A stretch of 44,214 nucleotides of DNA, from positions 1-44,214 of IMG/VR virus record IMGVR_UViG_3300027905_000009. One strand, written 5' to 3'. Positions 4,163 to 28,384 of the stretch are shown here, in pieces (within the stretch, counting starts at the first letter, position 1; the number at the start of each line of letters is the position of its first letter). This DNA is from a virus. The notes below the pieces were generated by a model. It ran no database searches and was not told the origin of the DNA. It saw nothing but the letters and a program-made list of their open reading frames with translations. The position numbers and the translations under genes are program-made.

Positions 4163-4477
4163 TCACTGCGAATAAATCAGCGCAACGCATGGCGGCGGCG
4201 TCATCAGCACCACCGGCGGCGAGACGCTGATATCCACCATCCAGCCCGGCGGCATCCCTCCGGTGGCCGTGTACGTCGCGGGCAGGCCCACGGCGCGCGT
4301 GATCTGAATCGACCGCAGCGCGATTTGTCCGGACTGGCACAGGACTGCGGCCTGCTGCAGCGTGATTTGAGTCGCCCCGGACGGCGGAGCGGCGATCTGG
4401 TTCATCGCGACCCTGGTCTGTCCCAGAAGACCCGGAGCGAAGCAGACGCCGCACAGCCCCAGAAGCAGCGCCCTCAC
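4163..4477 (-). CDS. small exported protein, 104 aa
   Basis: The GTG-initiated product begins with a Sec-type signal peptide: basic N terminus, hydrophobic core LLLGLCGVCFAPGLL and a likely cut near GQT. The mature part, about 84 residues, is rich in Ala, Pro and Thr and contains three cysteines, two of which could form a disulfide. No family is recognised. It is the last gene of a five-gene exported block and overlaps the stop of the upstream gene (GTGA). Placed after the fibre gene, it may be a fibre accessory or a secreted protein of the lysogen. Confidence 0.6.
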   Translation of the reverse strand: MRALLLGLCGVCFAPGLLGQTRVAMNQIAAPPSGATQITLQQAAVLCQSGQIALRSIQITRAVGLPATYTATGGMPPGWMVDISVSPPVVLMTPPPCVALIYSQ

Positions 4478-4962
4478 TGTGATCTATAATCCACGGTCAG
4501 CGTCGAGCTCAACGAGGGAACCTGCGAGGCCGCGAAGATCAGCGTCGCGCCGGTGAGCGCATAATCCACGCCCGGCGTCATCCGCAGGCCGTTCAGGTAG
4601 ACGTGGGCGGTGCCGGTGACCGGCGCGGCTTTCAGCGTGAACGCGACATTGGTTCCGTCGATCGTCCCCGATGGGGTCTCGCTGTCGACGAAGACCGGCG
4701 AGGCCGCCGGCGGAGCGGAGACGATCACCCGCAGCGCGGGCGGATTTACCGTGGTATCGAGCTTGAAGCCAGCGGGGTCGAGCGTCGCGCAGACCAGTTT
4801 GAGCATCGGGAACCCGCTGGTCACGCCGGCCGGAAGCACTACCGGAATCTGCGGACCGGCCGCGCCTCGGCAAGCCACCTGGTCCAGCGGCACGATCGTT
4901 TGGCCGCGTAACGCGGCCGCGAGCAGAAGCATTCCCAGCATTGGGAGAGCCGGACGATTCAT
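4474..4962 (-). CDS. exported protein with a tail-type C-terminal beta domain
   Basis: ATG 4962 is preceded by GGAGGG and encodes 162 residues, starting with a signal peptide whose core MLLLAAALRGQT suggests a cut before Q. The C-terminal half (about residues 85-162) reads ETPSGTIDGTNVAFTLKAAP, then VYLNGLRMTPGVDY and TLTVDYR. This is a beta-rich segment (NGTNxxFTLxxxP, then VxLNGLRxxxGxDYxxxG) found in many phage tail-fibre and minor structural proteins. The exported N terminus on such a domain is odd. Start and stop overlap the neighbours as ATGA and GTGA. Confidence 0.65.
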   Translation of the reverse strand: MNRPALPMLGMLLLAAALRGQTIVPLDQVACRGAAGPQIPVVLPAGVTSGFPMLKLVCATLDPAGFKLDTTVNPPALRVIVSAPPAASPVFVDSETPSGTIDGTNVAFTLKAAPVTGTAHVYLNGLRMTPGVDYALTGATLIFAASQVPSLSSTLTVDYRSQ

Positions 4963-5297
4963 CGCGTCCCTCCGTGAATGGCGAGATTCCTGACGGCGGA
5001 GAAACCGGACGTGCCGGCAGCCGAATAGTTCAGGACCGTCGCCAGCTTGCGATGCCGGGGAAGCAGCAGCTCGATCGCCACCACGGCCGTGACAACCCCG
5101 AACTTGACGCCGCATTGGCGAGCGCCGAACTGGCCGCGGCCGAGCAGCGGATTGGCTTCGATCCCGCCGCGCGAGCTGAATGCGTCGGCGGCGTTCGCGC
5201 CGGCCAGGACGCCGACCGAAATCCAGAACTCGTGGTCCGCCGCGCGCGCAGGAAGCGTCGCCATGAGCAGCAGGCAGCTCGCCACGAGGACTTTCAT
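4959..5297 (-). CDS. exported or membrane protein, 112 aa
   Basis: A signal peptide (MKVLVASCLLLMATLPARAA) is followed by WISVGVLAGANAADAFSS, GGIEANPLLG and a hydrophobic helix near GVVTAVVAIELLLP. The pattern of small hydrophobic helices with an 'EANP' turn resembles small integral membrane proteins of the DUF5658 type, common in Acidobacteriota. The function is unknown. It overlaps both neighbours by four bases (ATGA), so it is co-translated with the exported block. Confidence 0.6.
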   Translation of the reverse strand: MKVLVASCLLLMATLPARAADHEFWISVGVLAGANAADAFSSRGGIEANPLLGRGQFGARQCGVKFGVVTAVVAIELLLPRHRKLATVLNYSAAGTSGFSAVRNLAIHGGTR

Positions 5298-5659
5298 TTC
5301 TCGTCTCCATTCAGCTTTTTGAGATCGGGCTTAATTTCGACCGGTGGCGGCGGGATGCTCCCATCTTCGCCGGGTTTACAGTCTCCCTTTTGGATCTGGC
5401 CCACGGAGAAGCCGGCCTCTTTGCAATACCGCTCGATCAGAGCGTTATGCTCCTTCAGCGCGGCAGCGCCCTCGGCCTGAGCGCGCTGTAGCGTCTCCTG
5501 CGCATGCTGGGCCGTCTCCTTGGCATGCCCGATCTGCTCGCTGGCGAGCTTGACCTGAAGCTGGAGGCGCTTCAAACGCTCCCGGTCTTCGGCCGGTATG
5601 GTGACGTTCCCGGCGCTAAGCGTCACGGCGCAAAGGGCTAGAATCGAGACCCGTCTCAT
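5294..5659 (-). CDS. exported coiled-coil protein, 121 aa
   Basis: The first 17 residues form a signal peptide (ILALCAVTLSAG). Residues about 22-75 form a strong heptad-repeat coiled coil (AEDRERLKRLQLQVKLASEQ onward), followed by a short Cys-containing region and a proline-rich tail. There is no lipobox. An exported coiled coil with a Pro-rich tail recalls spanin or Rz-type lysis proteins, but the evidence is compositional only. It sits between two exported genes with four-base overlaps. Confidence 0.55.
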   Translation of the reverse strand: MRRVSILALCAVTLSAGNVTIPAEDRERLKRLQLQVKLASEQIGHAKETAQHAQETLQRAQAEGAAALKEHNALIERYCKEAGFSVGQIQKGDCKPGEDGSIPPPPVEIKPDLKKLNGDEK

Positions 5660-6024
5660 CGGCCCTCTTTCCTGGCCCGTGCCGCGGACGCACTCGGCGG
5701 GACGGGTACTACGCTATCCACGATCGATGCGTCCACCTTTAAGATCAGCTCCGTGTCGACGCCGGTCCCTGGTCCGGCCAGGATCGCGGATCGTGGTTGG
5801 CCCTGTTGATCGTGGTAAGCCACCGCCAGATTGTAGAAGTCCGCAGCAGTGGGGCTCGGATTATAGATCCAGACGGCCACGTGCACCGGAATCGTCGAGG
5901 TCGGCGGATCCGCGATGGTTCGCAGCAATGAAGTGCTGGACCAGTTCACCCACGAAATGATGAGCTCCGGGTTTTGCGCCATCGCCAACATCGCGACAAA
6001 AACAGTCAAAAGTAATCGCTTCAT
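5656..6024 (-). CDS. small exported protein, 122 aa
   Basis: AGAGGT lies just before ATG 6024. The protein has a clear signal peptide (MKRLLLTVFVAMLAMAQ), then a beta-rich mature region with IISWVNWSSTSLLRTI and VHVAVWIYNPSP, and an Ala/Arg-rich end. Acidobacteriota secreted proteins often look like this. I recognise no family. It is the first gene of a block of five overlapping exported genes behind the fibre gene. Confidence 0.6.
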   Translation of the reverse strand: MKRLLLTVFVAMLAMAQNPELIISWVNWSSTSLLRTIADPPTSTIPVHVAVWIYNPSPTAADFYNLAVAYHDQQGQPRSAILAGPGTGVDTELILKVDASIVDSVVPVPPSASAARARKEGR

Positions 6025-6099: not shown

Positions 6100-8427
6100 T
6101 TAGTAGATTCTCAAGGCTTGAATGTGAAAGTCATATCGACCGGGGCCAGCACAGCCACCGCTATTCACTAGATAGCTGATGTTCCCGCTGGCCAGCCAAA
6201 TCGTGAATGTCTCCGCGTCGGAGTTTCCGACTCCGGCGGCGGCCATGGTCATCCCTGTCCCGGTATGCGCGTTCGATCCTGAGCTGTCGGTGTAGTTGAC
6301 TGTCGGGGATACGCCGGCCGAGCCGGACGAGCACCTAGTTGACTGCACGAGGTAGTAATTGATCTGGTAAAACCCGGCCCCCGGAGCGGTGGCGAGAGTC
6401 ACTACGGAAATGTTTCCGGTAATCCCGGTGGAATCCGCGGTGTACTGCGACCCCGGAATCACGAGGTCCCCTTGGCGCCCAACATAAACACAGTTACTAC
6501 AATTCCCGCCAGATCCTGCCCCTATCGCCGTCTGATAGGTAGTGTTGGGGCTCGTCGGGCCAGAGCCGGCGCCTACAGACGTATTGCCATAGCCGGTAGC
6601 GGTATGGATACCGGCCCCGTTCCCGACAGCGGTGTCGGCTGAGCCTGTCGTTATTGCTAGCAACGCGGTTGTTCCAACCGCTACGTTGTCCGCAGAGGAC
6701 GCCGAGTTGAGCAGAGCCTGATAGCCGATGGCTACGTTGCTGACCGAATTCCCGTCGCTGTTTAGCGCCTGGTTCCCAATTGCGATATTCTGATAGCCGG
6801 CCGTGTTGGCCTCAAGGGCTCCATACCCTATAGCTAAATTGTCGCTTGCGGTTGTGTTGGAAGCCAGGGCAAGAGACCCAAATGCGGTATTCCTAGATCC
6901 CGTGCTGGCAGTTAGGGCATCGAACCCAAAAGCGGAGTTGTCGGTGCCTGTGCTATTTGAATCGAGGGCCAAATAACCGAAGGCCGAGTTGTCGGTTCCG
7001 CTAGTATTGTGAGACAGAGCCTGGTGGCCCACGGCGGTTGTGCTGGGCGCCGTGCTGGCGAAGAGAGCCTCGTAACCGATTGCGACGTTGCCGTTGACGC
7101 CCACGGCTTGATCTAGGGCTTCCCACCCAATAGCCACGTTGTACGCCCCGGTCGTCAGTAGGATCGCGGCATCGTACCCGATAGCCACGTTGTCAAAGCC
7201 GCTCGTGTTCGCGCTTAGTGCCCCAGCTCCAATGGCTGTGTTTTGCGCCCCGCCTAAATTGGCCGCCAGGGCCACGCTTCCGATCGCGACGTTAGAGGCG
7301 CCACTCGTGTTGGCCAGCAACGCCTGATAGCCTATGCCGGTGTTGTCGCTGCCTGTATCGTTTTCCAGGGCGGAGTCGCCCACGGCAGTGTTGTCGGAGC
7401 CGGCCGCGTTGGCGTTCAGCGTTCCATATCCTATGCCGGTATTGTGTATGCCAGAGGTGTTCCCGTTGAGCGCCTGAAAGCCGATTGCTGTTAAATAAGA
7501 CCCCGAAACATCATTGGCGATGGCCGCATAGCCGATCGCCACATTAAACTGGCCGGAGGTAAGCTGCGCCATCACGGTGCCGCCGCCAATGCCGACGTTG
7601 CAGCAGCCGGTAACCACGTTGGGCATTGCCGTCTCGCCGATGGCTACGTTGTTACCTCCGGTCGTGCCGTTCAGGTATGCGCCATACCCAATCGCCACGT
7701 TGTAGTCGCCCGTCGTGTTGGCACCGGCGGCATTCTGTCCGACTGCGGTGTTGTAATCGCCCGTGTTTTGCTCAAGTGCGTAATAGCCCAGGGCGACGTT
7801 CTGCGAGCCGGACACGTTCTGGTTCAGGGAGAACGCGCCAAACGCCGTGTTCTGAGCACCTCCGACGTCGGCCTCCATCGCCGCAAATCCGCAGGCCGTG
7901 TTTCCGCCGCCCGTAGTATCCGCGGCTAATGCGTCTGATCCGCAGGCCGTGTTGTTGTTGCCGGTCGTTAGCGCGGTGAGCGCCTGGTAGCCGACGGCCG
8001 TGTTGTCGTGTCCGCTCGTAACGGCGAACAGTGCGTAGTACCCCCAGCCCGTGTCGTTCACTCCGGTCGTGGAGCTTGAGCCGGCACCGGCATTCACAAC
8101 CACTGCGTTGGCGTATTGCAAATTCGCGCAATAGCGCCAGGTCGTTCCGTAATCGTTGGCGTTCGTGAGCGCCTCAAGGCACTGATCTATTTGCGGCTCA
8201 GCGCTGGGAACTTCCAGCGTCATGTTATTTCCGAACCCGGTAGCCGGAGAGATGAATCGGAACCAATGATGAGTCGGCGTCTCTAGGTCGTCGATTTGGA
8301 CCGCCCCGCTGGACGAGGGCGCCCCGGTTGAGCCCGTGTTAGGAATCGCCTCGATTAAAGGATTTTTGACGGCCTGAGAAAAGGCCAGCCCGGAGGCGAC
8401 GCAGAGATAAGCGCTGAAGCGATTCAT
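6100..8427 (-). CDS. exported tail fibre with YadA-type head repeats
   Basis: ATG 8427 follows a GGGGGG run and encodes 775 residues. It begins with a signal peptide (CVASGLAFSQ). From about residue 125 to 640 it consists of some 29 repeats of 16-18 residues with the core N-T/V-A-x-G-x-x-A-L (for example NTAVGYQAL, NVAIGYGAY, NTAIGAGAL). This is the left-handed beta-roll of trimeric adhesins such as YadA, also used by phage fibres. The C-terminal 120 residues (VVTLATAPGAGFYQINYYLV to YDFHIQALRIY) form a typical fibre C-terminal beta domain. It directly follows the hub gene with a seven-base gap, as for receptor-binding fibres. Confidence 0.85.
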   Translation of the reverse strand: MNRFSAYLCVASGLAFSQAVKNPLIEAIPNTGSTGAPSSSGAVQIDDLETPTHHWFRFISPATGFGNNMTLEVPSAEPQIDQCLEALTNANDYGTTWRYCANLQYANAVVVNAGAGSSSTTGVNDTGWGYYALFAVTSGHDNTAVGYQALTALTTGNNNTACGSDALAADTTGGGNTACGFAAMEADVGGAQNTAFGAFSLNQNVSGSQNVALGYYALEQNTGDYNTAVGQNAAGANTTGDYNVAIGYGAYLNGTTGGNNVAIGETAMPNVVTGCCNVGIGGGTVMAQLTSGQFNVAIGYAAIANDVSGSYLTAIGFQALNGNTSGIHNTGIGYGTLNANAAGSDNTAVGDSALENDTGSDNTGIGYQALLANTSGASNVAIGSVALAANLGGAQNTAIGAGALSANTSGFDNVAIGYDAAILLTTGAYNVAIGWEALDQAVGVNGNVAIGYEALFASTAPSTTAVGHQALSHNTSGTDNSAFGYLALDSNSTGTDNSAFGFDALTASTGSRNTAFGSLALASNTTASDNLAIGYGALEANTAGYQNIAIGNQALNSDGNSVSNVAIGYQALLNSASSADNVAVGTTALLAITTGSADTAVGNGAGIHTATGYGNTSVGAGSGPTSPNTTYQTAIGAGSGGNCSNCVYVGRQGDLVIPGSQYTADSTGITGNISVVTLATAPGAGFYQINYYLVQSTRCSSGSAGVSPTVNYTDSSGSNAHTGTGMTMAAAGVGNSDAETFTIWLASGNISYLVNSGGCAGPGRYDFHIQALRIY

Positions 8428-8434: not shown

Positions 8435-11400
8435 CTAGCCGATGATCGGCTGACATGCCAAGTGCCACTTCGAGTCAAGTCTGTTGAGGACCAGGATTAG
8501 GCAGCTCGCGGAGTTTGCCATCCCCGAGAGGGTTACTGCCGCCACATCGGAGCCATAGGCAGTCCCCCAAGCCGGCGACGGCCTCCCGGCCGTTCCATCA
8601 GTGGTGATGGTTAGGATCATCCAACTCTCCGCGCTTCCGGAAGTCGACGAGCCGGCGCCTGTCGGGTTCTGAATCGTCACCTGCGCCGACTGGCTCAGCG
8701 TAAGCTCGCAGAACAGGCCGATGTCCAAATCGATGGCGACGCTGTTGCTGACAATCGATAGCGGGTTGGAGCCGGGCGCGAAAGAGCCCCCGCCGCCTCC
8801 GCCGCTCCCGAGCGGGGTCCACACTCGAGATCCGCCGGATACCGAGACGCTCTGCTGCCAGTTCCCGCTCGCCGGGTCTTTCCTGAAGAGCGCGTAATTA
8901 GCGCCGTAGGAGTTGGCCACCGCGTCCGAATACGGGGCGCCACTGCCCGCCACGACGATCCCGGAGGCTTGCCCGAACACGTAGACCATTCGCAGGACCG
9001 CGTCGGCTTCGTCCGACGTCGCTCCGGTATCGTCGACGCAGAAGCCGCCGACCAGCAGCGGAGTGTTCTGAAAGTTCTGGGTGGGAACGCTCAACACCGT
9101 GGAAACGCCCACGTTCGCGTTCTGGATCTGTGACGAGGGCGCCGAATATTCCCACGACGGCGATTCCACGATCCAGACCGAGGTGGCGTCGATGGGCAGC
9201 GCCCGGTCCAGCGTATAGGCGGTCGCGGTGTTGCTGACGATCTTCGCGGTGGCGCCGCGGTTCGTGCCCTTGATCACCCGCACGATGTTTCCCTTGCGGT
9301 TGGGATCGTTGGGCGTCTCGCCCGCGTGAGGCGTGGGATTGGTGGCGTTGGCCAGGCCCGTGTCGCCGATCTGCAACGGGTTGGCGCTGTTGTCGTAGCC
9401 CTTGAAACACACCACGAAGGCGTCGCCCGCCTGGACGCCCGCCGCATCCGCGGCGCGATCGAGGGTAAAATGCCCGTTCGCCGGATTGAAGGCGGTTATG
9501 TTGAAGTGCGCGAAAGGCGCCGATGCGCCGGGGCGGCCGATAATCGCCAGCGCGCGCCCGGCCCAGTTGTCGGTTCCCGCCGAATCGATGGTTTCCGAGG
9601 CAACAATGACATTGCCCGACACGGAATCTACGGGAGAGCCCACCGGTCCGCCGTGCACCAGATGCTTCACGCTCACCATGACGTTGGTGAGATGGGCGTT
9701 CGGGAGCGCCCAGATGGACCGCATCAGGGGGCCCTTGATGGTTACGCTCGCGGGCAGCGATCCCGGGGCATTGCCGAAGATCACGCTGGCCGAGTCTGAC
9801 GGCTGCGCGCCGATGAGATCGTCCGCGGTGGAGGCGAAGACCACGTAACCGGTGAGTCCGGAAACAGGCGGCCAAACGATCCCGCCGATCGTGATCTTGT
9901 TCGTATTCGTGCCCGACGGCACCTGCACCAGGACGATCGGCGAGGGCGGCGAGCAGTTGCTGAGCGCGTCGGTCGCGCAGATCGCGATGCGCAGCGTGAC
10001 TCCGCCCGGGATGGAGCCGCCGGTGGTCGATTGCGTCACCTGGCCCGAGGCGATGTTCGGAGCTCCGCAGCCTGGAAGATACTCGTTGATGGGAAGCTTT
10101 CCCGTCGCATTCAGGCCGGCCTTTACGGTTCCGTCGGCGAGCGTGGAATAACCTTGCGCCAGGTCGAAGGTCCATTCCGAGGGATAGAGGGCGTCCGCAG
10201 CCGCTGCCTGCACCTGATAGGGCGCCCATTCGCCCAGCGGCACGGGCCAGTTCATCGCGGGCAGCGGCGCCGGCGTCACGCTGGTCGGCTTGGGACCGGC
10301 GTCGAGATCGTACATCGAGTCCGTGACGGTCTGCCCTTCGAGCTGAACGGACCAGTCCTTGAACAGGCGGAAGCTGCGGATCCGGAACTTGGCCTGGCCG
10401 TTGGGCACGTCCGCATGGGTGATCGAGACCACGTCGCCCGCCTCGCCGTCCAGCGCCATGATGGTGCTCTTCCAGGTGGCCGTCCGGGCCGCGGCCCATT
10501 CGGTGGGGTTGACGCCGCCGATCTCCTCCCGTACGCGCGTGGCGGCGATCCGCAGGCCCTGGGACAGCGTGCTGCAGCCCACCACGTGCTGCCGGGCGGT
10601 ACGCGGCGCGTTGGGGCGCCCCATGTAGGCGGCGTAGCTCTTGTCCTGGTATTCCGCGGTGTCCGCCTGGAACTGATAGGCGACGTCGGCGAAATCCACG
10701 ATCAGGTGTTCGAACCTGGCCTGGATCGGTTTCAGGGTCAAGCTCTGGAACAGCATGTTGCCGGGGGTGTAGGCGGCCACCGCGCTCGCGTTGATGCGGC
10801 AGCCCAGCTTCAGCTTCCCGAATTCGAAGGTGTAGAATCCCAGCGCGCAGGCCAGGATCTCCGTCAGCCAGTCGCGGAACGGCTTCTGCTGCGCGACGGT
10901 TCCCTGGAACTGGAACTGGACCTCGGAGCCGCCGCCCACTAGGGCGGACACGAGCGTGTCGGCGATCTCGGCGGTCCCGGAGCCGTCGCCGACGTAAAGC
11001 GAATCGAGGACGAAGGTCCCGAGCTGAACGTCAGAGGTCGCGTTCTGCAGGCCCAGGCAGCGCAGATACGAGTTCACCGCGATCCAGAAGGGATTCGTCA
11101 AGCCCTGGACCGGCACGCGGTTCAGTGCTAGGCCCCCCGTCCAAGTGAGCCCTGTCAGGCCCATTGCAATCGGGACCGTCATCGAATGCTGATCGGGTGT
11201 TGTTGGAAGGATTCCGGAGGGCTTCTGATACCGGAGCTCCACGAACGCCGTGCCGGCCGCCATCTGCGGCCCGTAGATCTGACCGAGGGGAGGCAGCGCC
11301 CCATTTGTGGCTATAGGATTCTGGCCCAGGCTGAAACTGTCCGAGGGACTCGCGAGCATTCCACCGCCCACGGGGGTTCCCGGCACGGCCACCGGATCGT

Positions 11401-12856
11401 CGCCGTTCACCTCCCGCAAGCCCAAGTTTGGAACGTTGATGTGGTATGTGTCGTTGGGGATGTTGACCGTGAATCCCTCCGGCGGAAAGCCGTCCGCCAT
11501 CGGAGCGACTACGTAGGTATAGCCGTCGGCGTTTGTGGCGAGTCCCATCCCCGTGAAGAGGCCAATCGGCCCGGCTCCGACGATGCCGAGCACATCGAAG
11601 GCATCGCCCTCATCGCGCACGGCCGCGATGAGGGCGTTTACCATAAACGCGAAGAGCGGGTTGCCGCGCTGGTTGCACCAGATCTCCGGGAGCGCCTGTC
11701 CCCACATGGTGTCGGATACGATCGAGGTCGCCGTGACGGTATTCCTGCCGAAGCCGAACACGCCCGTGGAATTGTCCTTGATGTTGACGCCCTGGGGCTG
11801 CGCGGGATGGCCTCCGAAAAACGTGGTCATCCCATGCGCCTCGCAGCCGTTGGGCGAATCGAAGTAATAATCGCACTGCGTTCCGTCGCCCACGCCGCTG
11901 GCCGTGGACCAGGGGCAGTTCAGGCCGTCGTTGAACGTCTTCCAGCAGGTGCGCGAGATCACGTTCACCGGGTACTGCTGGGTGACCTGGTACAGCCCGT
12001 CGCTGCACTGCATGCTGAATTTCGGCGAGCCGTCGGAGACGAAGCTCCGGACGAATCCCTTCCAGAGCTGCAGCAGCACTTTCGGCCCCGGAAAATACAG
12101 CGTCAGGTCGATGCTCGCCCACAGCAGATCGGTGTCGTTGGCCAGCCTGGTCATGGTCCGGTCGGCGTTGCCGAACACGAACTGGACGTTATCCGCCGTC
12201 CCATTGATGTCCTGCGAGATGATCACGTCCGATCCCGGCTCGCCCAGGTCCAGAACGCGCGGCAGGTAGAGCTGGACGCCGACGGTGCAGCGCCGGTCGG
12301 AAAGATAAATATCGGGGACGGCCGCTTCGCGCACGCGAATGTGGACCAGCGGGATCACCACCTGGACTTGCGAGAGCAGCGCCGCGGCCAGGCCGGATGC
12401 GGCGGAAGGAAAACGCAGGTCGGTGGTCAGGACGCTGTATATCGGAGCGGCCGAGGGATCGGGGCACTCGATGAAGTTGATCCCCACGCGGCAGCCGTTC
12501 GATAGCTCGTCGATCGTCAGCGGGGCCGTCTCGAAGATTACCTGGTAATCGGTGGTGGTCCCGTCGGCGTTGGGCGCGTGGTACAGGAACGACTGGTAAG
12601 ATCCCTGGACCTGCTCAAAGAACGCCAGCAGGTTGATCTTGTCCGGATAGCTCAGCTTCTCCCTGCGGAAGTTGAATTTGCGCGGACCGAAGCCCACCTG
12701 GAAGCGCTGCTCGGCCTTCGTCGCCAGTTCTCCGAAGCGATGCACGATCACCGGCCAGGGCCGCGTCATGCCGAAGCCGAAGTCGGGTGTGAGCGGAAAG
12801 GTGAGTCCGGACGCGGCTGGAGTGGGGACAACTATCCTCCCGATCGCGTCCGGCAT
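8435..12856 (-). CDS. fused tail hub/tip protein with four-Cys cluster
   Basis: This 1,473-residue protein appears to fuse parts that are separate in many phages. Residues about 20-130 resemble a DUF2460/minor-tail domain (FGPRKFNFRREKLSYPDKIN then FFEQVQG). Residues about 150-350 resemble DUF2163/gpL-like proteins, with Cys304, Cys314, Cys328 and Cys338 in the pattern where lambda gpL and gene transfer agent hubs carry a 4Fe-4S cluster. The middle (about 620-880) has hub features. The rest is FN3-like and beta-rich, with a Gly linker before a C-terminal beta domain. It has no signal peptide, unlike the fibre after it. The ribosome binding site is weak. It is likely the distal tail platform to which fibres attach. 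Confidence 0.75.
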   Translation of the reverse strand: MPDAIGRIVVPTPAASGLTFPLTPDFGFGMTRPWPVIVHRFGELATKAEQRFQVGFGPRKFNFRREKLSYPDKINLLAFFEQVQGSYQSFLYHAPNADGTTTDYQVIFETAPLTIDELSNGCRVGINFIECPDPSAAPIYSVLTTDLRFPSAASGLAAALLSQVQVVIPLVHIRVREAAVPDIYLSDRRCTVGVQLYLPRVLDLGEPGSDVIISQDINGTADNVQFVFGNADRTMTRLANDTDLLWASIDLTLYFPGPKVLLQLWKGFVRSFVSDGSPKFSMQCSDGLYQVTQQYPVNVISRTCWKTFNDGLNCPWSTASGVGDGTQCDYYFDSPNGCEAHGMTTFFGGHPAQPQGVNIKDNSTGVFGFGRNTVTATSIVSDTMWGQALPEIWCNQRGNPLFAFMVNALIAAVRDEGDAFDVLGIVGAGPIGLFTGMGLATNADGYTYVVAPMADGFPPEGFTVNIPNDTYHINVPNLGLREVNGDDPVAVPGTPVGGGMLASPSDSFSLGQNPIATNGALPPLGQIYGPQMAAGTAFVELRYQKPSGILPTTPDQHSMTVPIAMGLTGLTWTGGLALNRVPVQGLTNPFWIAVNSYLRCLGLQNATSDVQLGTFVLDSLYVGDGSGTAEIADTLVSALVGGGSEVQFQFQGTVAQQKPFRDWLTEILACALGFYTFEFGKLKLGCRINASAVAAYTPGNMLFQSLTLKPIQARFEHLIVDFADVAYQFQADTAEYQDKSYAAYMGRPNAPRTARQHVVGCSTLSQGLRIAATRVREEIGGVNPTEWAAARTATWKSTIMALDGEAGDVVSITHADVPNGQAKFRIRSFRLFKDWSVQLEGQTVTDSMYDLDAGPKPTSVTPAPLPAMNWPVPLGEWAPYQVQAAAADALYPSEWTFDLAQGYSTLADGTVKAGLNATGKLPINEYLPGCGAPNIASGQVTQSTTGGSIPGGVTLRIAICATDALSNCSPPSPIVLVQVPSGTNTNKITIGGIVWPPVSGLTGYVVFASTADDLIGAQPSDSASVIFGNAPGSLPASVTIKGPLMRSIWALPNAHLTNVMVSVKHLVHGGPVGSPVDSVSGNVIVASETIDSAGTDNWAGRALAIIGRPGASAPFAHFNITAFNPANGHFTLDRAADAAGVQAGDAFVVCFKGYDNSANPLQIGDTGLANATNPTPHAGETPNDPNRKGNIVRVIKGTNRGATAKIVSNTATAYTLDRALPIDATSVWIVESPSWEYSAPSSQIQNANVGVSTVLSVPTQNFQNTPLLVGGFCVDDTGATSDEADAVLRMVYVFGQASGIVVAGSGAPYSDAVANSYGANYALFRKDPASGNWQQSVSVSGGSRVWTPLGSGGGGGGSFAPGSNPLSIVSNSVAIDLDIGLFCELTLSQSAQVTIQNPTGAGSSTSGSAESWMILTITTDGTAGRPSPAWGTAYGSDVAAVTLSGMANSASCLILVLNRLDSKWHLACQPIIG

Positions 12857-12872
12857 TTCTTACACGGAAGCG

Positions 12873-13037
12873 CTACCGGGCCGGATGCACCGTAACGGTC
12901 TCCCACATGTCCGGTTTCGTGGTCTTCTGGGCCTGCTGCGCCGGCGTCAGCTGCAGCGGGTTCAGCTCGTGCGCCGGCACCATCGCGGTCACCGCGAGCG
13001 GCGCGATCGCCACCGGCGTCCACATGTCTGGACTCAT
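12873..13037 (-). CDS. small tail-module protein, 54 aa
   Basis: ATG 13037 overlaps the preceding stop (ATGA), and GGAGGAGG lies seven bases upstream. The 54-residue product contains MSPDMWTPVAIAPLAVTAMV and ends VTVHPAR. The phrase P-D-M-W occurs twice, near each end. It is not recognised as a family. The strong ribosome binding site and exact coupling make it convincing despite its size. Confidence 0.65.
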   Translation of the reverse strand: MSPDMWTPVAIAPLAVTAMVPAHELNPLQLTPAQQAQKTTKPDMWETVTVHPAR

Positions 13038-13309
13038 ACCATGCCTCCTCCGACGGGAACTCCGAACTGATCCAAGATCACGCCGCTATAGGAATTGCGC
13101 TGGCCCTCGGCGTGGTCCAGGCGCGCCTCTTCCGGGATGCAGGCGTCGCAACGCGCACTGCCGCACGTCACGCCGCCGCATCGCATGCACCAGCCCCGTG
13201 TGACGCCCGAGCCCCGCAGCATCTGGAAGTGTCCGCCGCAGTGGACACACTTCCGGGTAGAGCCAATCTGGATCCCATCGACGAGAATCGCTCCGTGTTC
13301 TGCAGCCAT
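13034..13309 (-). CDS. zinc-ribbon tail-module protein, 91 aa
   Basis: Four Cys pairs are visible: KCVHCGG near residue 20, GWCMRCGG near 40, and CGSARCDACIPEEARL near 48-60, matching small CxxC-rich proteins found between tape measure and hub genes of many siphophages. Zinc binding is likely; the exact structural role is not established. The stop overlaps the next ATG and the start lies three bases after the upstream stop. Confidence 0.7.
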   Translation of the reverse strand: MAAEHGAILVDGIQIGSTRKCVHCGGHFQMLRGSGVTRGWCMRCGGVTCGSARCDACIPEEARLDHAEGQRNSYSGVILDQFGVPVGGGMV

Positions 13310-13312
13310 CGG

Positions 13313-13771: not shown

Positions 13772-13814
13772 TTCTTTCCTCTTTCTTTCCGGCGCGCTTT
13801 CGACGCGCGCGCCC

Positions 13815-20390: not shown

Positions 20391-23300
20391 CTTTCACCGA
20401 TTTCGAGACCGTCGGCGCGCCGCCGGAATTGTTGTAGCAGCCCGCCGCATCGAAGCCCTTGATGTGCGGATAGGAGAATGTGCCGGACGAGATTCCAGGA
20501 TTCGAAGCGGCCGCATAGCTGAACGTGGTGGACGTCACGGCGGTCACGAGCACCGTGCCGCTGGTCGGAATGCCGGAGACTTGATCGCCCACTAGCAAGG
20601 TATGCGTACCGACGGTCAGCTCCTCGGTTCCGGCCGAGAAGCTTCCCGCGGTGATCGTGTAGGTCGTGGAATAAGCCGGGTCGTCCGCCGCGTTGGCAAA
20701 GCAGACTCCGGCAGGAATCGTCGACGCGTGCCCGGTTGGGTCGCTGGCCGTCACGTCCGGGCCGATAGCGGGCCAGGGGATCGTCACCCACGGGTTGGTC
20801 CACCAGGCGGGCTGGCTGTTCACGATAAAGCTCGCGGGCAGCGTGTGGTTGGCCGGGACCGTCTGGTCCGACGGAATCTCCGATGAATTCCAGCGAGTCC
20901 CCGTCGCGGCGTCGTTGTTGCCCCACAGCAGCAGCGTGGTTTTCACCGCCGAGTCGGAAGCGACGCCCCCGGAGTTGCTATCCAGGAATCCGCTCCAGCC
21001 GGTCACCAGGTTGCTGGCGTTAGGCGTTCCGTTGGAGGCCGATTCGTCGTCCCAGTAAACCGTATTCTGGCCGCCCGTCCCGATGACGTTGCCGATCGTG
21101 CTCCATTTCCTGGCGTAGCTGTTCAGGTTGATCGGGACGGTGTTATTCGACTTCTGGACCAGGCTCGCGTCCTCGTTGCCCTTGATCCGGTTGCGGAACG
21201 CCGTCAACAATCCGCCGACCCCGTGGACATCGTCGCCGGTGAACTGGGTGGCATAGTTGCCTTCGGCCAGGTTCATATAAGTAAAAGCGTCGTGGCCCAG
21301 GAAGTTGTCGCCGCCCAGGATCGTCGCGGGGTCGGCGTAGTTATCGAAGTTGTAATTGTAGGCCGTGACGGTCCCTTCGTCCGCCCCACGGATGAAGCCG
21401 GTCCCCATGTGCTGGAAGATCGAATTGATGACCAGGTTGTCGGCGGCCTCGTAATCCTCTCCGCCGTACTGGCACGAATCCGGTCCGGTGTTGACGAAAT
21501 AGCTGTTCTGGACGGTGACGTGGTTCGAGAACTGGTTCCAGAAGTGGTTGCGGACGCTGTTGGACGCGCCCGCCGCTACCTGCGGACCGATCGAGCGGAC
21601 ATTGCTGATCCAGGTCCCGTAGGCGTTGTAGTTATTCACGCCGCTGAACGGATTGCCGCACGAGTACCCGGTGACGGCGGTGAAATCCAGGGTGATGTTC
21701 TGGATGCCCGAGTTCGTGATCTGGGTGCCCGTCCACCAGGCGCCGGGAGACTTGCCGCGAATGGCCCAGTTGGCCGCATAGAGCGGGGGCGTGACCGTCA
21801 CCAGGTAGGGTCCGGAGCCGGAGATCGAAACGACTTTGACGAACTGCTGCTGGCTGGAATTGACTCCTCCGATGGTCCGGCCCGCACTGCCGTTGCCCGA
21901 GCCGCCGTTCGTAGCGAACGTGCCGATGAGGTCCCCGGAGAAAGGATCGGTCCCGCTCGGCAGAGTGGTGTCGTTCGGCTGATCCAGGATCAGGATCTGT
22001 CCGGCGGCCAAGGCCACGCCGGTCGACTGGTGGTCGATCAGGATCTGCGTCGATCCCTGGGCGAAGCCCTCGACCCAATTGGCGCACTGCTGCGTCGTTC
22101 CGCAAGGAGGCGTGATGATCGCCGTCCCGTCTCCAATGTTCGCCCCGGCGAAGCCGACGGAGGCTGTTCCGCCGGCACAATCGGAACCATCGGAAAACAC
22201 TATCTTTGTTGTTTTCGGACTGGCTGCGCGGAGTTCAGTATTCGACCCCACGCAAATTCCATTAGCCAGATAGAACGTCCCAGTCCCCAGCATCACGTAA
22301 GTGCTGGAGGCGCATCCCGTGTAGCCCGTCCCGGTGTGATTTAGGGCATTGATGATCGTATTCGGCGAGGCGGGGGAGCCGCTCGTCCCGTAAGCCGAGA
22401 TAGTCGCTCCGCATTGGCTCCAGCTTGCCGATGGGAGCACCAGGGCGGTCTTGTCTTCGCCCGGCACGCCCGCCTTGGTCCAGTCGATCGCGCGCCCCGA
22501 GTTCAGGATCGGCGACCAATTCCCCGTGATGGCCGGCTGAGGCGGGAGCAGCGGCCACGGACAGACCGCCGGGCCGACGCAGAAGAACCATTTGTCATAG
22601 AAGTTATGGTTCGTCGTGAAGGTGCCGACGTTTCCGCCCGAACGCCCGAGCTGAACAAGCGCGGGAGGCTGCGTTCCGGACTCGGCCGCGACCCCGTTGA
22701 TCTCCGCTACGCCGTTCACGGCGGACAATACCGGACGCAGGGCTGCGTCGTACAGCCGGTATCCGTCCTGGCCGCTGCCTCCGGGCGTGTTGTAGCCGGC
22801 GAGGAAGTACCAATTCCCCACGCCGTTAGCCCAATTACAGCCGGTCGCCGAGCTCGACTTGAGCGGGAAGTAATCGGTGTGATTGGTCATCCCGCAGCAT
22901 TCGATGTTCAGGCCGATCACGCCGGACGCCTCGGCCGGCTCCAGCGAAAGGTTCGTGAAATTCATGCTCCCGGCCTGGTCGAGGGTGGCGACGTCGTACC
23001 AGGAGCTCGTGTTGCCGGTGCTATCGGGAATGTCCGTGCAGAACCAGCCGCCGAAGCTGGCCATGCGGTTCTGGCGCAGGAATTGCGGCCAGTTGATCTC
23101 TACGGTCTGCTGGTCGCTGGTGGTGGAGATGGTGTTGTAGCGGAGCTGGGTGCCGCCCAGATCGTCCGTATACGTCGCCCCCGCCGTGTTCCCGTTTCCG
23201 CCATAGCAGAAGCGGATCGGATTCGGGTTCACGTGGTGGCCAGCCGTATCCCAGACCAGGTTGTCGGTGCCGTTGGGCGTCGCGACGCTCATCCCGTCGC

Positions 23301-24120
23301 CCGAGCCGGTCGAGATCCATGGCGCTCCATAGATCGAGGCCTGAAGCGTGGAGTTGGTGACCTGGTTCCCCGAGGTGCCTCCCGAGAAGTCGATCATCGT
23401 CAACTGGCTGCAGGGCAGCGTGACGCCGATGCCGAAGCTGATGGCCAGCACCGTCTCGTGGGCCGGGGTCGCGGTCGCGGTCCAAGTGGGAGCCGCCGCG
23501 GAGGTCGTGTTCGCGTTGACCGCGACGCCCATGCCGCCGGCGAACACCGCGTTGGCGCTGTAGGGGCTGCTGACAGCGGTCACGGATGTGCTGGCGATGG
23601 CCGCTTCGATCACGAGGCACTGCGTACAGCTCAGGGTCAGCGCCAGCCCACTGAAGGTCGTCGCGGACACGGCGCGGGGCGTGCTGTCGAGCGGCTCCAG
23701 GTACAGCGTCCCGGCCGGCGGAGTGACGACTACCAGAACGACCGAGCCGCCGCCGTCGGTGGTCCCGCCGTCGTTATTTGCGAAAGTGACGGTGACCGTG
23801 GCGTTGGAAATGGCGGTGGCCCCAATCACATAACAGGCATCGAGCCAATTGGTGGAGACGAACTCCGCGCCGTTGATCAGCCCGCTGGTAAGGCATGTGC
23901 CGCCAGCGCTGATGCTGGCGATGGTTGTGCCGACCGTGGTGCCCCCCGCTGTGCCGGTACCCGCCACGGCCACGACCAGATCTCCGGAATTGATCGTTAC
24001 GTTGGGAATAGCGCAGGTAAGGCCAGCGGCGCAGGAACCGTTCGAGAAGAAATGAACGGTGCCGAACGTCTGCCCGAAGCAGGCAGAAGCCAGCAGGAGG
24101 AACGAAAGTAGCCGTGGCAT
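20380..24120 (-). CDS. exported beta-helix tailspike-like protein
   Basis: The 1,246-residue protein begins with a signal peptide (LLSFLLLASACFGQT). Residues about 20-230 form a beta-sandwich like that of the adjacent repeat protein. A central lectin/jelly-roll-like part follows. Residues about 640-1080 show the short strand-turn repeats of a right-handed parallel beta-helix, with Asn-rich ladders (NSGIQNITLDFTAVTG, NSYFVNTGPDSCQYG, NLVINSIFQHMG), as in pectate-lyase-like tailspikes that bind or cut polysaccharides. The C terminus adds a small beta domain (EELTVGTHTLLVGDQVSG). Catalytic residues cannot be fixed by eye. Confidence 0.7.
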   Translation of the reverse strand: MPRLLSFLLLASACFGQTFGTVHFFSNGSCAAGLTCAIPNVTINSGDLVVAVAGTGTAGGTTVGTTIASISAGGTCLTSGLINGAEFVSTNWLDACYVIGATAISNATVTVTFANNDGGTTDGGGSVVLVVVTPPAGTLYLEPLDSTPRAVSATTFSGLALTLSCTQCLVIEAAIASTSVTAVSSPYSANAVFAGGMGVAVNANTTSAAAPTWTATATPAHETVLAISFGIGVTLPCSQLTMIDFSGGTSGNQVTNSTLQASIYGAPWISTGSGDGMSVATPNGTDNLVWDTAGHHVNPNPIRFCYGGNGNTAGATYTDDLGGTQLRYNTISTTSDQQTVEINWPQFLRQNRMASFGGWFCTDIPDSTGNTSSWYDVATLDQAGSMNFTNLSLEPAEASGVIGLNIECCGMTNHTDYFPLKSSSATGCNWANGVGNWYFLAGYNTPGGSGQDGYRLYDAALRPVLSAVNGVAEINGVAAESGTQPPALVQLGRSGGNVGTFTTNHNFYDKWFFCVGPAVCPWPLLPPQPAITGNWSPILNSGRAIDWTKAGVPGEDKTALVLPSASWSQCGATISAYGTSGSPASPNTIINALNHTGTGYTGCASSTYVMLGTGTFYLANGICVGSNTELRAASPKTTKIVFSDGSDCAGGTASVGFAGANIGDGTAIITPPCGTTQQCANWVEGFAQGSTQILIDHQSTGVALAAGQILILDQPNDTTLPSGTDPFSGDLIGTFATNGGSGNGSAGRTIGGVNSSQQQFVKVVSISGSGPYLVTVTPPLYAANWAIRGKSPGAWWTGTQITNSGIQNITLDFTAVTGYSCGNPFSGVNNYNAYGTWISNVRSIGPQVAAGASNSVRNHFWNQFSNHVTVQNSYFVNTGPDSCQYGGEDYEAADNLVINSIFQHMGTGFIRGADEGTVTAYNYNFDNYADPATILGGDNFLGHDAFTYMNLAEGNYATQFTGDDVHGVGGLLTAFRNRIKGNEDASLVQKSNNTVPINLNSYARKWSTIGNVIGTGGQNTVYWDDESASNGTPNASNLVTGWSGFLDSNSGGVASDSAVKTTLLLWGNNDAATGTRWNSSEIPSDQTVPANHTLPASFIVNSQPAWWTNPWVTIPWPAIGPDVTASDPTGHASTIPAGVCFANAADDPAYSTTYTITAGSFSAGTEELTVGTHTLLVGDQVSGIPTSGTVLVTAVTSTTFSYAAASNPGISSGTFSYPHIKGFDAAGCYNNSGGAPTVSKSVKDAA

Positions 24121-24136
24121 CGATTGTCGACAATCG

Positions 24137-25240
24137 TTAGAAGTAGACCGTCTCCGTCAGCTGGAACGTGTCTCCGTTATTCAGGGAGACCGGGGTGAAC
24201 GTGCCTTCAAAGCACATGGTTCCGGACGAGGAGGCCGTCAGGACGCCGAACGCCTGCGCGGATTGGCTGGCGGTGGCCGTCCAGGTGTGCACCAGCGTGA
24301 ATTTGCCGAAATTGGTCAGATTGCTCCCGGGAATCGTGACCGACAAGAGCGTGTTGCTCTCGTCGTCCTGTTCGCAGGCCAGCGCGGCGGAGCAGTCGGG
24401 GTTGCCCTGGACCTGATCGGTCACCGTGCCGGAGGGCGCGGTGCTGGAGGTCGTCCGGTAGACCTGATAGGTGCTTGCGCCGTTTTGGCCGGTCCATGTG
24501 ATGGTGTTGAAGTTGGTGGCGCTCAGGGTCGCGTTGGCGGTGGTGATGTTATTGCTCGCCGCCGAGGGCGTGGTACAGATGCCCTGATTGCAGGCTGCGA
24601 CCCAATACCAGTAGGAGGTCGATCCAGCGGTGCCGAGCACGGAGGCGGTGGGCGCGGCGGGAACGGAAAGCGTGGTCGAGGCATCGGTGTATGTCGCCTG
24701 CGCGCGAGCCAGACCGTTGGTGGTGATCTCGCCGGAGAGCGTGGTGTCCGCCTCGGCCGGAGTGAACGCGGTGTTGGTGAGCGCAATATTATTGCACTGG
24801 TTGTTCACCGCCGGCGTGCTGGTGTCGCCCATCAACTGGGACTGCCAGGTTGTCCCGGCGCTGGTCCGCATGTTGTGCGTCTCGCCGGAGAAGAACAGTT
24901 CCCCGCACTCCTCCGTCTTCAGGCACCCGGGCACGGGATGCCTGGCTTCGACGTGAACCGGATGCGTCAACGCCCAGAGCGCTTCGGATTGCTCCAGACC
25001 CGTTGAAGCCGCCACCGGCGCCGTGGCTCCCTTGGCCGGCCGCTTGAAATTCCACCATTTGCGCCAGGGCGTGATTTTCACCGCCATCGGCCGCCCCGGA
25101 GCCGGCTGAATCATCAGCGGATGCGCCGCCCGGGTAACTACGACCGAGGCCTGATCGTGCGCCCCGGACTTGTCGGAGCCCTGCGCGAACAGGCACGCGG
25201 CAGCTGCCGCAAACGTAAGTATTCTTACAATCGGTTTCAT
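24137..25240 (-). CDS. exported fibre-type virion protein with internal FN3-like insert
   Basis: After a signal peptide (ILTFAAAAACLFAQ), residues 136-188 (LMGDTSTPAVNNQCNNIALT, FTPAEADTTLSGEITTNG) and 297-367 (TIPGSNLTNFGKFTLVHTWT, TMCFEGTFTP) match two halves of a single domain seen in many phage minor structural proteins. Between them, residues about 189-290 read as an FN3-like beta domain (STSYWYWVAACNQG, ITWTGQNGASTYQVYRT). The N-terminal 110 residues include a basic KWWNFKRPAKG stretch. So it is a virion-type domain that is interrupted and carries an export signal. Confidence 0.65.
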   Translation of the reverse strand: MKPIVRILTFAAAAACLFAQGSDKSGAHDQASVVVTRAAHPLMIQPAPGRPMAVKITPWRKWWNFKRPAKGATAPVAASTGLEQSEALWALTHPVHVEARHPVPGCLKTEECGELFFSGETHNMRTSAGTTWQSQLMGDTSTPAVNNQCNNIALTNTAFTPAEADTTLSGEITTNGLARAQATYTDASTTLSVPAAPTASVLGTAGSTSYWYWVAACNQGICTTPSAASNNITTANATLSATNFNTITWTGQNGASTYQVYRTTSSTAPSGTVTDQVQGNPDCSAALACEQDDESNTLLSVTIPGSNLTNFGKFTLVHTWTATASQSAQAFGVLTASSSGTMCFEGTFTPVSLNNGDTFQLTETVYF

Positions 25241-25273
25241 GTCTCTCCTTGAATTCAGTGCGAACCGACCGGC

Positions 25274-28200
25274 TCACTGCGGCCGCATCGCCGTCCACTG
25301 CAACGTCAGCGCTCCCGGCGTCACCGAAGAGGCCAGCTGGTTGCAGACGTTGATGTTGATGGTGTTGGTGGTGATGTAATGCGAGATCTCCAGGCCGCCG
25401 CTGCCCGGCACGTAGCCGGCGATGCCGAAGATGTTGGTGGTCGGCATCAGGTAGACCACGTCCTTGGTGGGATCCAGTCCGGTCACCGTGATCGTGGTCG
25501 GCGTGGCGCAATTCGGCGCGGCGCCGATGCTGGACGTGGCCATGGCCACCTGCCCCGATCCGAGCAGCAGGCCCAGCGTCGACGCGTTCCCTCCGGCGTT
25601 GGCGATGTTGACGTTCTGGTTCGCCGTCACGTTGACCGGATTGAACTGCGTCACGAATCCCGTGGCGTTCCGCATCTGGATGCCGTCGAAGCCCACGCCG
25701 AACTGCTGCACGCTCAGGTTGCCGTTGCCGTTGCAGGGGCTATTCGTCATCGCGGCCAGGCACTGCGCGTACAGCCATTGGTGGGTCCCGGCGAGCGTGG
25801 CGTTGCTATCCGGCTCCGAATCCCAGAACGAATACATGGGGTGCTGAGCCGAGCCGCCCCATACCGAGGCGATCATGCCGACGTTCTGCGATTTGACGTT
25901 CGTCCCGCTCGTCGCGGCGGCAGTGGGCGTCAGCCAGAAGCCGTAATTGCTGTTCCCGTAGGCGTTGTAGCCCAGCATCGCCAGGGGATTCTCGGTTCCG
26001 CCGCCGGTCTCGAGATCCAGCTCAAACGTCCCGCCGTAGAGGTTTCCGTAGGTGCCGAAGGAGACCTGGTGAAAAACCAATTCGTCGGAATTCGAGCCGT
26101 TCTTGATGCCCTTTAGGCCGAAATAGGCGTCGCGCGAATTGGTGTAGTTCCAGATCTGCAAACCGCTGGCGTCGAGCATCGCGCCTTGCGTGTACCCATC
26201 CCCGCCGACTCTATCGAGCGCGGAAAAGCAGCCGGCCGTCGTCTCGGCGCCGCCATTGCCGAAACCGCAGGCCTTGAACAGCCCGTTGCTGTCCGTGCCA
26301 ATGCTTCCGCCGGTGTTTTGCCAGATCCACGATCCGCTGGTCGACGGCAGCAGTCCAGCTCCCAATAAGAGCTTGGTGGAGGGAAACTGCAGCAGGTAAT
26401 TGAACGTCGGGTTGGAGCCGCCTGCATTTCCGCCGTCCGCCAGGAAGGCATTGAAGGCCGGCGCGGCCATCGACCCGTTATTTCCGGCCATCAGGTTCTG
26501 GACCTGGAAAATGTTGCCCTGCGGTTGTCCGCCGTTATTGGCCACATTCATGAACGCCCGATTCAGCGTGCCCGGCGTGTAGCTGTTCAGGAAATAGTTG
26601 AAGCCGGTGTTGTCGGGATACGGAGAAACAGCCAACTCCACCGTGTCGCCGTTCGACCATGTCGACGTGTTCGGCGTCAGCCAGACGGTGCTGCCGGTAA
26701 TCGCCAACGTCCGGCCGCACGGATAGACTGCGTAAGTGCTCCCGGTATACGTTGGGCCGTGATAGGAGCCGGTTCCCGGGAGGTCGAAACTGAACCAGCC
26801 CATGCTGGTGTTGCTGTTGACGCCGCCTCCAAAGCCGCCGATCTCCCAATAGGAGCCCAGCGCCGCCGTTCCGGATCCGAACGGCGAATATGTCTGATCC
26901 TCCGCGGCCGCGCGGCCGCAGCCGGGGCTGTTGGCTTCGCCTCCGACCATACCCGTCGTCCAGGTGGTCCCGTGGCCCACGACCGTCGTCGCATTGTTGG
27001 CCCGGTCCAGCGTGCCGGTGGTGTAGGATGCGCCGCTGAGGTCCACAAGCACGCGGTCCTGCCCGAACGCATACACGCTCGTGAGCGGAAGACCCAGGCT
27101 CGGCCGTACCGTAGCCCCGCTGGAATGGTTATTTGTCCAGACCGCAGTGATCGAACCGAAAGTGATCCCGGTCAGCACGAAGTCCTCGTAGTTGTAATAC
27201 CCGGTAGGCCCGTTCCAATCCGCCGTGAGGTGATCGCCGACCATGCAGCCGGTGGTATTCGGTGTCACTGTTACGGTCAGGCTGACCGGAGGCGAGTTCG
27301 CCGGAATCACGACCGCCTGAGACAAGGTCATGTTCGGACAGCCCGACCGTACCGGCGCGCCGCTGACCGTGGTCTTGACGATGAAGCCCTGCTGCTGCAG
27401 GCGGCTGACCACGCTGAATCCGCGCCCCTCATCGCCGGCCACGCTCGCGCCGGCGTAGGTGAGCGTCGTGCTCTCTCTGGCTACATCCCCCATCCCGTAT
27501 TTGGTGAGCGTGTAGTTGTGCATGATCGCCTGGCCGGAGCCGATGACGCTCATGCCTTCATTAGTCACGGACTGGGTGATCTTGGCGTTCGTCCCGCCGC
27601 CGTATTCGCTGTTTCCCCAGCCGACGTTCACGTTGATGTCCTGGCAGTACTGCGCCGTGAAACCCACGTTCAAAGTGGTGTCGGTGCTCGCGTTGAACGT
27701 GCACGCGAAATCCTGCCCGGAATGCAGGTTCGGACTGTTAAGAGCGTTCGGATTCGTGAGGGAATAGCCGAATCCGCCGCCGCCGGCGTTGTCGGTGAAC
27801 GTCGTGCGGTAGCCGCCCATGTTGAGCGCCTGATTCGCCAGGGGATTCTGCAAAGCGGACCAGGGCGGCGTGCCGCTCGAAGGCGTGCACCATCCGGTAA
27901 CGCCCGCGAGGTTGCACAGGACCTGTCCGTTCGTGGATCCCGTCACCGAAATCTGGCGCGGCGCGAAGGAGAGAGTCGGGCTTCCCGGATAATTGACGGT
28001 GACTTCTTTGATCGTGCAGAAGCTGGAGGAAGCGCACTGGCTGGAGGGGAGGGTCGGAACCGACCAGTAGGTGGTGATGGACTGGCTACCCACGGTAAGC
28101 ATCACCCGATAGGTCAGGCCGCTGGACGTCGCATGATCCGTCGGGACGAGCGGGATGTTGACCACTCCGGCGACCACCTGGTAGATCTCGCCGATCAGCG

Positions 28201-28384
28201 GACTTTGGGCGACGCTGGCGCCGTTGTAGGTGAATTCGGCCCAGGCGACGGCGATGGTGCCGTTCACGAGCGCTCCGTTGGCGCCGGGCGCGAGCGTGTC
28301 GGAGATGGTAGTGTACGGCGGAGTCTGCGCGAGCGCGCACACTGCGAGCGCCGACGCCAGCGCCAACTTGAAGAGGGTCCTCAC
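25274..28384 (-). CDS. exported tail fibre/spike protein, 1,036 aa
   Basis: A signal peptide (LALASALAVCALAQT) is followed by a fibre-type N-terminal domain (LAPGANGALVNGTIAVAWAE, GLTYRVMLTVGSQSI, TTYWSVP, then VTVNYPG), widespread in phage tail fibres. The remaining 850 residues are beta-rich, with Asn/Gly-rich strand-turn segments typical of beta-helix or beta-prism spikes, and a C-terminal beta domain (TTITVTGLDPTKDVVYLMPT). The ATG overlaps the stop of the frameshifted T extension (ATGA), so translation is coupled to the chaperones. It is the first gene of the exported cassette. Confidence 0.75.
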   Translation of the reverse strand: MRTLFKLALASALAVCALAQTPPYTTISDTLAPGANGALVNGTIAVAWAEFTYNGASVAQSPLIGEIYQVVAGVVNIPLVPTDHATSSGLTYRVMLTVGSQSITTYWSVPTLPSSQCASSSFCTIKEVTVNYPGSPTLSFAPRQISVTGSTNGQVLCNLAGVTGWCTPSSGTPPWSALQNPLANQALNMGGYRTTFTDNAGGGGFGYSLTNPNALNSPNLHSGQDFACTFNASTDTTLNVGFTAQYCQDINVNVGWGNSEYGGGTNAKITQSVTNEGMSVIGSGQAIMHNYTLTKYGMGDVARESTTLTYAGASVAGDEGRGFSVVSRLQQQGFIVKTTVSGAPVRSGCPNMTLSQAVVIPANSPPVSLTVTVTPNTTGCMVGDHLTADWNGPTGYYNYEDFVLTGITFGSITAVWTNNHSSGATVRPSLGLPLTSVYAFGQDRVLVDLSGASYTTGTLDRANNATTVVGHGTTWTTGMVGGEANSPGCGRAAAEDQTYSPFGSGTAALGSYWEIGGFGGGVNSNTSMGWFSFDLPGTGSYHGPTYTGSTYAVYPCGRTLAITGSTVWLTPNTSTWSNGDTVELAVSPYPDNTGFNYFLNSYTPGTLNRAFMNVANNGGQPQGNIFQVQNLMAGNNGSMAAPAFNAFLADGGNAGGSNPTFNYLLQFPSTKLLLGAGLLPSTSGSWIWQNTGGSIGTDSNGLFKACGFGNGGAETTAGCFSALDRVGGDGYTQGAMLDASGLQIWNYTNSRDAYFGLKGIKNGSNSDELVFHQVSFGTYGNLYGGTFELDLETGGGTENPLAMLGYNAYGNSNYGFWLTPTAAATSGTNVKSQNVGMIASVWGGSAQHPMYSFWDSEPDSNATLAGTHQWLYAQCLAAMTNSPCNGNGNLSVQQFGVGFDGIQMRNATGFVTQFNPVNVTANQNVNIANAGGNASTLGLLLGSGQVAMATSSIGAAPNCATPTTITVTGLDPTKDVVYLMPTTNIFGIAGYVPGSGGLEISHYITTNTININVCNQLASSVTPGALTLQWTAMRPQ

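Follow-up and report, generated by a model that had tools for sequence, protein, structure and literature searches.

Eleven proteins with predicted Sec-type signal peptides in two blocks of the tail operon of a temperate phage

Tail fibres and tail spikes are taken to remain in the cytoplasm until assembly. Here we describe two blocks of genes in the tail operon of a virus, IMG/VR record IMGVR_UViG_3300027905_000009, in which eleven open reading frames (ORFs), named sp1 to sp11, encode proteins with predicted Sec-type signal peptides. The window, by which we mean the whole 44,214-base stretch of this record, is a temperate tailed phage; the terminase, portal, protease-capsid fusion, decoration protein and tape measure genes are all on the minus strand, and the plus strand encodes a Ku protein and an integrase (43021-43587, PF00589, E 6.9e-32), from which we conclude that the phage is temperate. 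Relatives of its protease-major capsid fusion (32363-34864, minus strand; phrog_4523, E 4e-165), which served as the query for finding related loci (labelled here with L-numbers, as are host loci), are frequent in IMG/VR, with 208 stretches. Because they also sit as prophages in Bryobacterales/Solibacteraceae assemblies (contigs of metagenome-assembled genomes, MAGs), the host is very probably a soil acidobacterium of the order Bryobacterales (Acidobacteriota).

All eleven genes are on the minus strand; in the signal peptides given below a slash marks the predicted cut site. The larger block is bounded at its 5′ edge by a conserved zinc-ribbon-like gene (28381-28686, minus strand) and at its 3′ edge by the conserved tail gene g17663 (17663-18112, minus strand; 54-68% in relatives). 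It opens with sp10 (25274-28384; VRTLFKLALASALAVCALA/QT), whose GTG start has a 4-nucleotide (nt) overlap with the stop of the gene upstream, and which has a beta-rich first domain of ~115 amino acids (aa) and a long variable distal part. There follow sp9 (24137-25240; ..AAACLFA/QGS), with a phage-only domain containing a fibronectin type III (FnIII)-like stretch; the long protein sp8 (20380-24120; MPRLLSFLLLASACFG/QT), which over residues ~525-1236 matches secreted beta-helix proteins of the host encoded near glycosyltransferase genes; sp7 (18459-20390; MPRKAFLFLLLGLPAGA/QV), with repeats GLGAHFGAASDASNL, an N-terminal domain that occurs in secreted host proteins and a match to phrog_26323 (E 2.8e-9); and the small protein sp6 (18119-18451; ..PPVRA/QEQ), for which a search for relatives found none.

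The smaller block begins with sp5 (6100-8427; MNRFSAYLCVASGLAFS/QA), the first gene past the tail hub. It matches the tail spike family phrog_4636 (E 1.7e-84) and has visible repeats that look like those of YadA heads, yet gives no Pfam YadA match. Beyond it are the small proteins sp4 (5656-6024; MKRLLLTVFVAMLAMA/QN), sp3 (5294-5659; MRRVSILALCAVTLSA/GN), which is coiled-coil-like, and sp11 (4959-5297; MKVLVASCLLLMATLPARA/AD), then sp2 (4474-4962; MNRPALPMLGMLLLAAALRG/QT) and the small protein sp1 (4163-4477; VRALLLGLCGVCFAPGLLG/QT). The signal of sp2 is followed by a domain that recurs in tail fibres and at the end of secreted singletons of the host. In Pfam no significant family was found, whether with ten of the block proteins in a joint scan or with the ORF at 4959-5297. 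A preliminary description of this DNA had placed fibre or virion domains in at least four of these proteins, and this holds in part: sp5 has the tail spike match given above, sp2 has weak tail-fibre matches (E 0.0055), the beta-helix of sp8 is supported indirectly, through a host relative (L268) that matches the pectate-lyase family PF12708, and the supposed fibre N-terminal domain of sp10 proves to be a domain common to ten phages and located in the tail operon. The minor structural domain assigned to sp9 matched no family.

The signals themselves were assessed with a rule-based score of our own (basic n-region, hydrophobic core and the −3/−1 rule), applied to gene starts from a simple caller. 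All eleven ORFs reach the threshold, with scores of 5.7-10.2 against 6.8-11.1 for nine well-known E. coli, M13 and vector signal peptides, and each has the basic start, hydrophobic core and small residues at −3 and −1 expected of a signal peptidase I substrate. The other virion genes of the window score at most ~4, in keeping with the earlier claim that they lack such signals, and among 651 instances (some redundant) of core virion genes from 110 related phage loci none is above threshold at its called start; one, a terminase, reaches it with an alternative start. As to false positives, not one of 152 non-gene ORFs passes the threshold, and random internal segments of the same proteins do so in 0.33% of cases; of 259 host chromosomal genes, 22-28% reach it. 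The cut-site pattern noticed earlier also holds, with Q preceded by A, G or S at the presumed cut site behind the hydrophobic core in nine of the eleven; this pattern is common in host signals (33/73, versus 12/123 proteins without a signal). Judged by sequence, the eleven ORFs are well supported as genuine predicted Sec-exported proteins.

The gene order common to the relatives is capsid, decoration protein, connectors, tail tube, a chaperone-like gene, slot A, g17663, tape measure, slot B, g13815, slot C, hub and slot D. Slot A is empty in L007, L193, L196 and L278, where the zinc-ribbon-like gene that precedes it is present at 53-66%, and in the window it is filled by the 10-kilobase larger block; other relatives have unrelated cargo there, sometimes on the opposite strand and in one case with a signal. 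Neither the tape measure (14266-17637, minus strand, with PHROG tape measure matches) nor the tail hub (8435-12856, minus strand, 43-67% in relatives) has a signal. Within the larger block the gaps are at most 33 nt and there are overlaps of 4 nt at 28381/28384 and 11 nt at 20380/20390, and five genes of the smaller block have 4-nt overlaps. A scan of positions 17400-29000 found no promoter-like site in the larger block (1.6 expected) and terminator-like sites at chance level. Given the tight overlaps, the late strand and the lack of a promoter-like site, the block is by its layout part of the late operon. All seven related phages with contigs that reach far enough encode a separate signal-less post-hub protein beside a signal-bearing one.

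Several other genes in these loci deserve mention. A ParA-like gene (by sequence appearance) occupies slot A on the opposite strand at L198:8618-9625 (−) and L068:9580-10587 (−), and L204 carries DNA-methyltransferase-like and GHKL-ATPase-like genes (10576-14120, −; again by appearance) between the hub and the post-hub gene, which may perhaps be defence cargo. In the window a ferritin-like protein (34878-35351, minus strand; PF00210, E 2.4e-14) is encoded between the portal and capsid genes; with 57 called relatives in related phage loci, its conserved presence in the head operon is unusual. The Ku-type DNA end-binding protein (41934-42665, plus strand; PF02735, E 8.4e-28) adjoins the integrase, and a DUF5131/phrog_2045 protein (E 1e-95 and 5e-104) is encoded at 68-1009 on the plus strand.

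With the N-terminal 180 residues of sp10 and two relatives as queries, a scan identified ten further phages (L277-L286) with an sp10 relative of 400-718 aa in slot B on the late strand, although the counts of slot-B genes are biased, some loci having been found by searching for such genes. These genes begin 34-42 nt past the tape measure, with that of L278 overlapping the tape-measure stop by 4 nt. Homologues starting past the hydrophobic stretch, which had been named as evidence that would speak against export, were not observed among these: the sp10-type signal is kept in all ten. Beyond the first unit the distal parts diverge, one type being common to eight phages and a different one being present in each of L279, L281 and the window. 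In those eight, pooled dN/dS (the ratio of non-synonymous to synonymous substitution rates) comes to 0.31 in the signal and to 0.14 and 0.18 in the first domain and the remainder, respectively; since ten phages keep the signal-bearing relative and dN/dS is below 1 over the signal, the signals are no local accident.

Relatives of sp9 with signals occur in three other phage lineages (L298, L299/L300 and L301). In L298 the gene is directly past the portal gene; that locus also encodes a further large signal-bearing protein (15265-16902, +; MRKLLFWLAVSASATNIPISVQA..) of no family. The L301 relative has a signal if an upstream GTG start is used and is preceded by two more signal-bearing genes, so that signal-bearing clusters of this kind are found more than once. 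When viral contigs were scanned with the tape measure or with full-length sp8, sp10 and sp7, the searches gave nothing or only a second copy of the window phage, and searches of cultured phages with sp8, sp9 and sp10 gave no match. That second copy, the public contig 3300000567_000006, is identical across capsid, tail tube and sp10-sp9-sp8-sp7, and may share its sampling site with the window. Among the relatives of sp5 in unrelated phages, the YadA-repeat fibres of five cultured marine phages and those of IMG/VR relatives have no signal.

The host chromosomes contain parts of the same proteins. Matches to sp10 were found in 17 of 150 Bryobacterales genomes, 16 of them to the unit of signal plus first domain; the carriers are chromosomal singletons, mostly of ~280 aa, beside serS or other housekeeping genes and outside prophages. 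The serS-adjoining secreted singletons (L229:8937-9767, L233:8795-9640 and others) have a tail-fibre-like C-terminal domain and conserved synteny. Another chromosomal gene, L240:6275-9088, encodes a signal and tail-fibre-like repeats with minor-tail and tail-fibre PHROG matches (E 7.5e-13), and its end resembles that of sp10 (43%). Host relatives of sp5, sp7 and sp8 bear signals wherever the start is visible, those of sp8 adjoining genes for glycosyltransferases, a carbamoyltransferase or a nucleotidyltransferase, and for sp9 a search of 200 Bryobacterales genomes gave only short weak matches. The earlier proposal that the export signals were acquired from host genes fares differently from gene to gene: it is supported for sp10, whose signal and first domain form one unit common to the chromosomal singletons, probable for sp5, sp7 and sp8, and not supported for sp9. 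Such patterns suggest an exchange of parts between phages and the secreted proteins of Acidobacteria.

Structure prediction for the sp10-type protein of L282 gave a mean pLDDT (predicted local distance difference test) of 42, with a beta-helix in the distal part, at residues ~271-400, at a block pLDDT of 73-89. The closest PDB structures to this helix are the polysaccharide lyase RbmB, PL6 alginate lyases and tailspikes, and viral matches to the model include tail spikes and pectate-lyase-like proteins. The first domain of sp10 is predicted with low confidence to be a beta-sandwich (mean pLDDT 54 for a 24-row model); a fold search with this model gave nothing below E 0.001, and sequence searches of the PDB, made with the first-domain alignment and with sp8 and sp5, returned nothing of use. 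The signal-bearing proteins have conserved cysteine pairs, and their cysteine content is 1.6% versus 1.0% for core proteins, which by itself is no clean separation.

We favour, with somewhat better than even confidence, the interpretation that the two blocks encode Sec-exported modular adhesins or glycan-acting spikes, which are made along with the late genes and do their work on the host surface or once released. It builds on what comparison of the sequences has established, namely the predicted signals, the constant tail-operon positions at which they are conserved, the modular build and the parts common with secreted host proteins. Late in infection, or in lysogens whose late genes are leaky, the block proteins would be carried to the periplasm by the Sec machinery of the host, the signal would be cleaved, and the proteins would then get to the cell surface or the medium, where their fibre-like and beta-helix parts are predicted to bind or cut surface glycans. 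The likely benefit would be that host exopolysaccharide or receptors are loosened or masked, such that progeny may spread without sticking to debris or to cells already infected. Because there are secreted relatives, a signal-less post-hub protein in seven phages and an architecture like that of the MAT proteins discussed below, we infer that the block proteins act outside the cell rather than in the virion and are not its main fibres. A number of observations weigh against this interpretation. It requires that such large proteins cross the outer membrane; our signal score is home-made and has hand-set weights; the overlapping ORFs of the block sit inside the late operon, where one would look for virion genes; the window has no signal-less post-hub protein of the usual kind, the hub being followed by sp5, which could therefore hold that virion place; Pfam searches up to E 0.5 found no YadA C-terminal anchor in sp5; the PDB matches of the L282 model have low TM-scores across the whole chain; and its first domain weakly resembles a Bxb1 tail-tip protein.

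The same genes could be read in other ways. Of the explanations offered in the preliminary description, that of secreted or surface proteins that change the host is the best supported, except as to when they are made. If they were lysogenic-conversion cargo, that is, adhesins or superinfection-exclusion proteins made in the quiet lysogen as with E. coli lom or eib, the integrase, the prophage relatives in MAG contigs, the secreted host relatives and the unrelated opposite-strand cargo in slot A of relatives, one with a signal, would all be accounted for. Classical morons carry their own promoter, however, and although the larger block resembles a moron in being absent from the same place in four relatives, it shows no sign of a promoter or terminator of its own; since it is packed into the late operon, with overlapping genes on the late strand, its genes are more probably expressed late than in a quiet lysogen, and we consider conversion cargo of this sort possible but unlikely. 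We are more doubtful that the proteins are virion fibres that are exported, folded with disulfides in the periplasm and joined to released tails during or after lysis. In ten phages the gene keeps its position between the tape measure and the tail-tip genes, overlapping the tape-measure stop in L278, which would suit such fibres, as would a conserved first domain whose distal parts are exchanged, a pattern known from receptor-binding proteins, the cysteine pairs and raised cysteine content, the missing post-hub protein of the window and the weak likeness to a Bxb1 tail-tip protein. Against this, a virion tail fibre would be expected to lack an export signal, the post-hub protein of seven related phages is a separate one that bears no signal, several block proteins have secreted bacterial relatives, the first domain occurs in secreted chromosomal singletons with no tail to join, and literature searches gave no precedent. 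The broader proposition that a family of tailed phages exports some fibres or spikes by Sec and mounts them on virions outside the cell, giving a partly extracytoplasmic particle with disulfides, seems a shade more improbable still.

Lysis-related or lipoprotein accessories, with small proteins aiding lysis and some large ones being lipoproteins, are very improbable: there are six small signal-bearing ORFs, including the coiled-coil-like sp3, and in sp8 and sp9 a cysteine past the hydrophobic core loosely fits a lipobox, but this cysteine is not conserved in relatives and no spanin, endolysin or lipoprotein family was matched in Pfam or PHROG. Two block ORFs have GTG starts and their upstream Shine-Dalgarno sites vary, as might be seen if starts were wrong or if a chimeric contig had fused secreted host genes to a phage; we rejected both, as the signals are kept in relatives and the second contig is identical, and give almost no weight to an artefact.

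No paper treating signal-bearing tail fibres as a system came up in literature searches, in agreement with the earlier statement that no such described system was known; phage-encoded exported surface proteins are nonetheless already known as a kind. The gene lom lies between J and stf, past the tail hub gene, a position like that of sp5. Eib has YadA-type heads, which the repeats of sp5 may resemble, and differs in having a membrane anchor; Lom is a small beta-barrel, Eib a membrane-anchored trimeric autotransporter, and neither is a large late-operon cluster. Both are surface proteins borne by E. coli prophages (PMC8065619). PblA and PblB of streptococcal prophages are tail-type adhesins on the bacterial surface, the role proposed for the block proteins; a putative signal peptide is reported for the pneumococcal PblB, and that of S. 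mitis reportedly leaves the cell once lysis has made it permeable and has an important part in forming the tail (PMC4508584). Their host is Gram-positive, however, and no cluster of exported proteins has been described for them. With RbmB of Vibrio cholerae and with tailspikes the likeness is a right-handed beta-helix predicted for the L282 protein, a match at the level of fold to a model that is partly of low confidence. Closest in architecture, the only level compared, are the MAT proteins of Bdellovibrio bacteriovorus, with a signal, a conserved beta-rich domain of ~130 aa, phage-fibre-like parts and exchangeable tips (PMC10769870); sp10 and its phage relatives likewise run from signal to a predicted beta-rich domain (~115 aa) to diverse distal parts. 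MAT proteins are exported and act on glycans of other cells, and by analogy we propose the same role here, although they are trimeric surface fibres encoded by chromosomal genes of a predator, and the block genes are in a phage tail operon.

The repeated retention of export signals on fibre-like proteins of the tail operon suggests a secreted use of tail-like adhesins or glycan-acting spikes by phages. Acidobacteria are an abundant soil phylum, with which an exchange of parts with phages is suggested, and the tail-operon context offers a place to look for phage-borne counterparts of the Bdellovibrio MAT fibres. Such viruses probably put tail-like proteins to use outside the cell and not solely in their particles.

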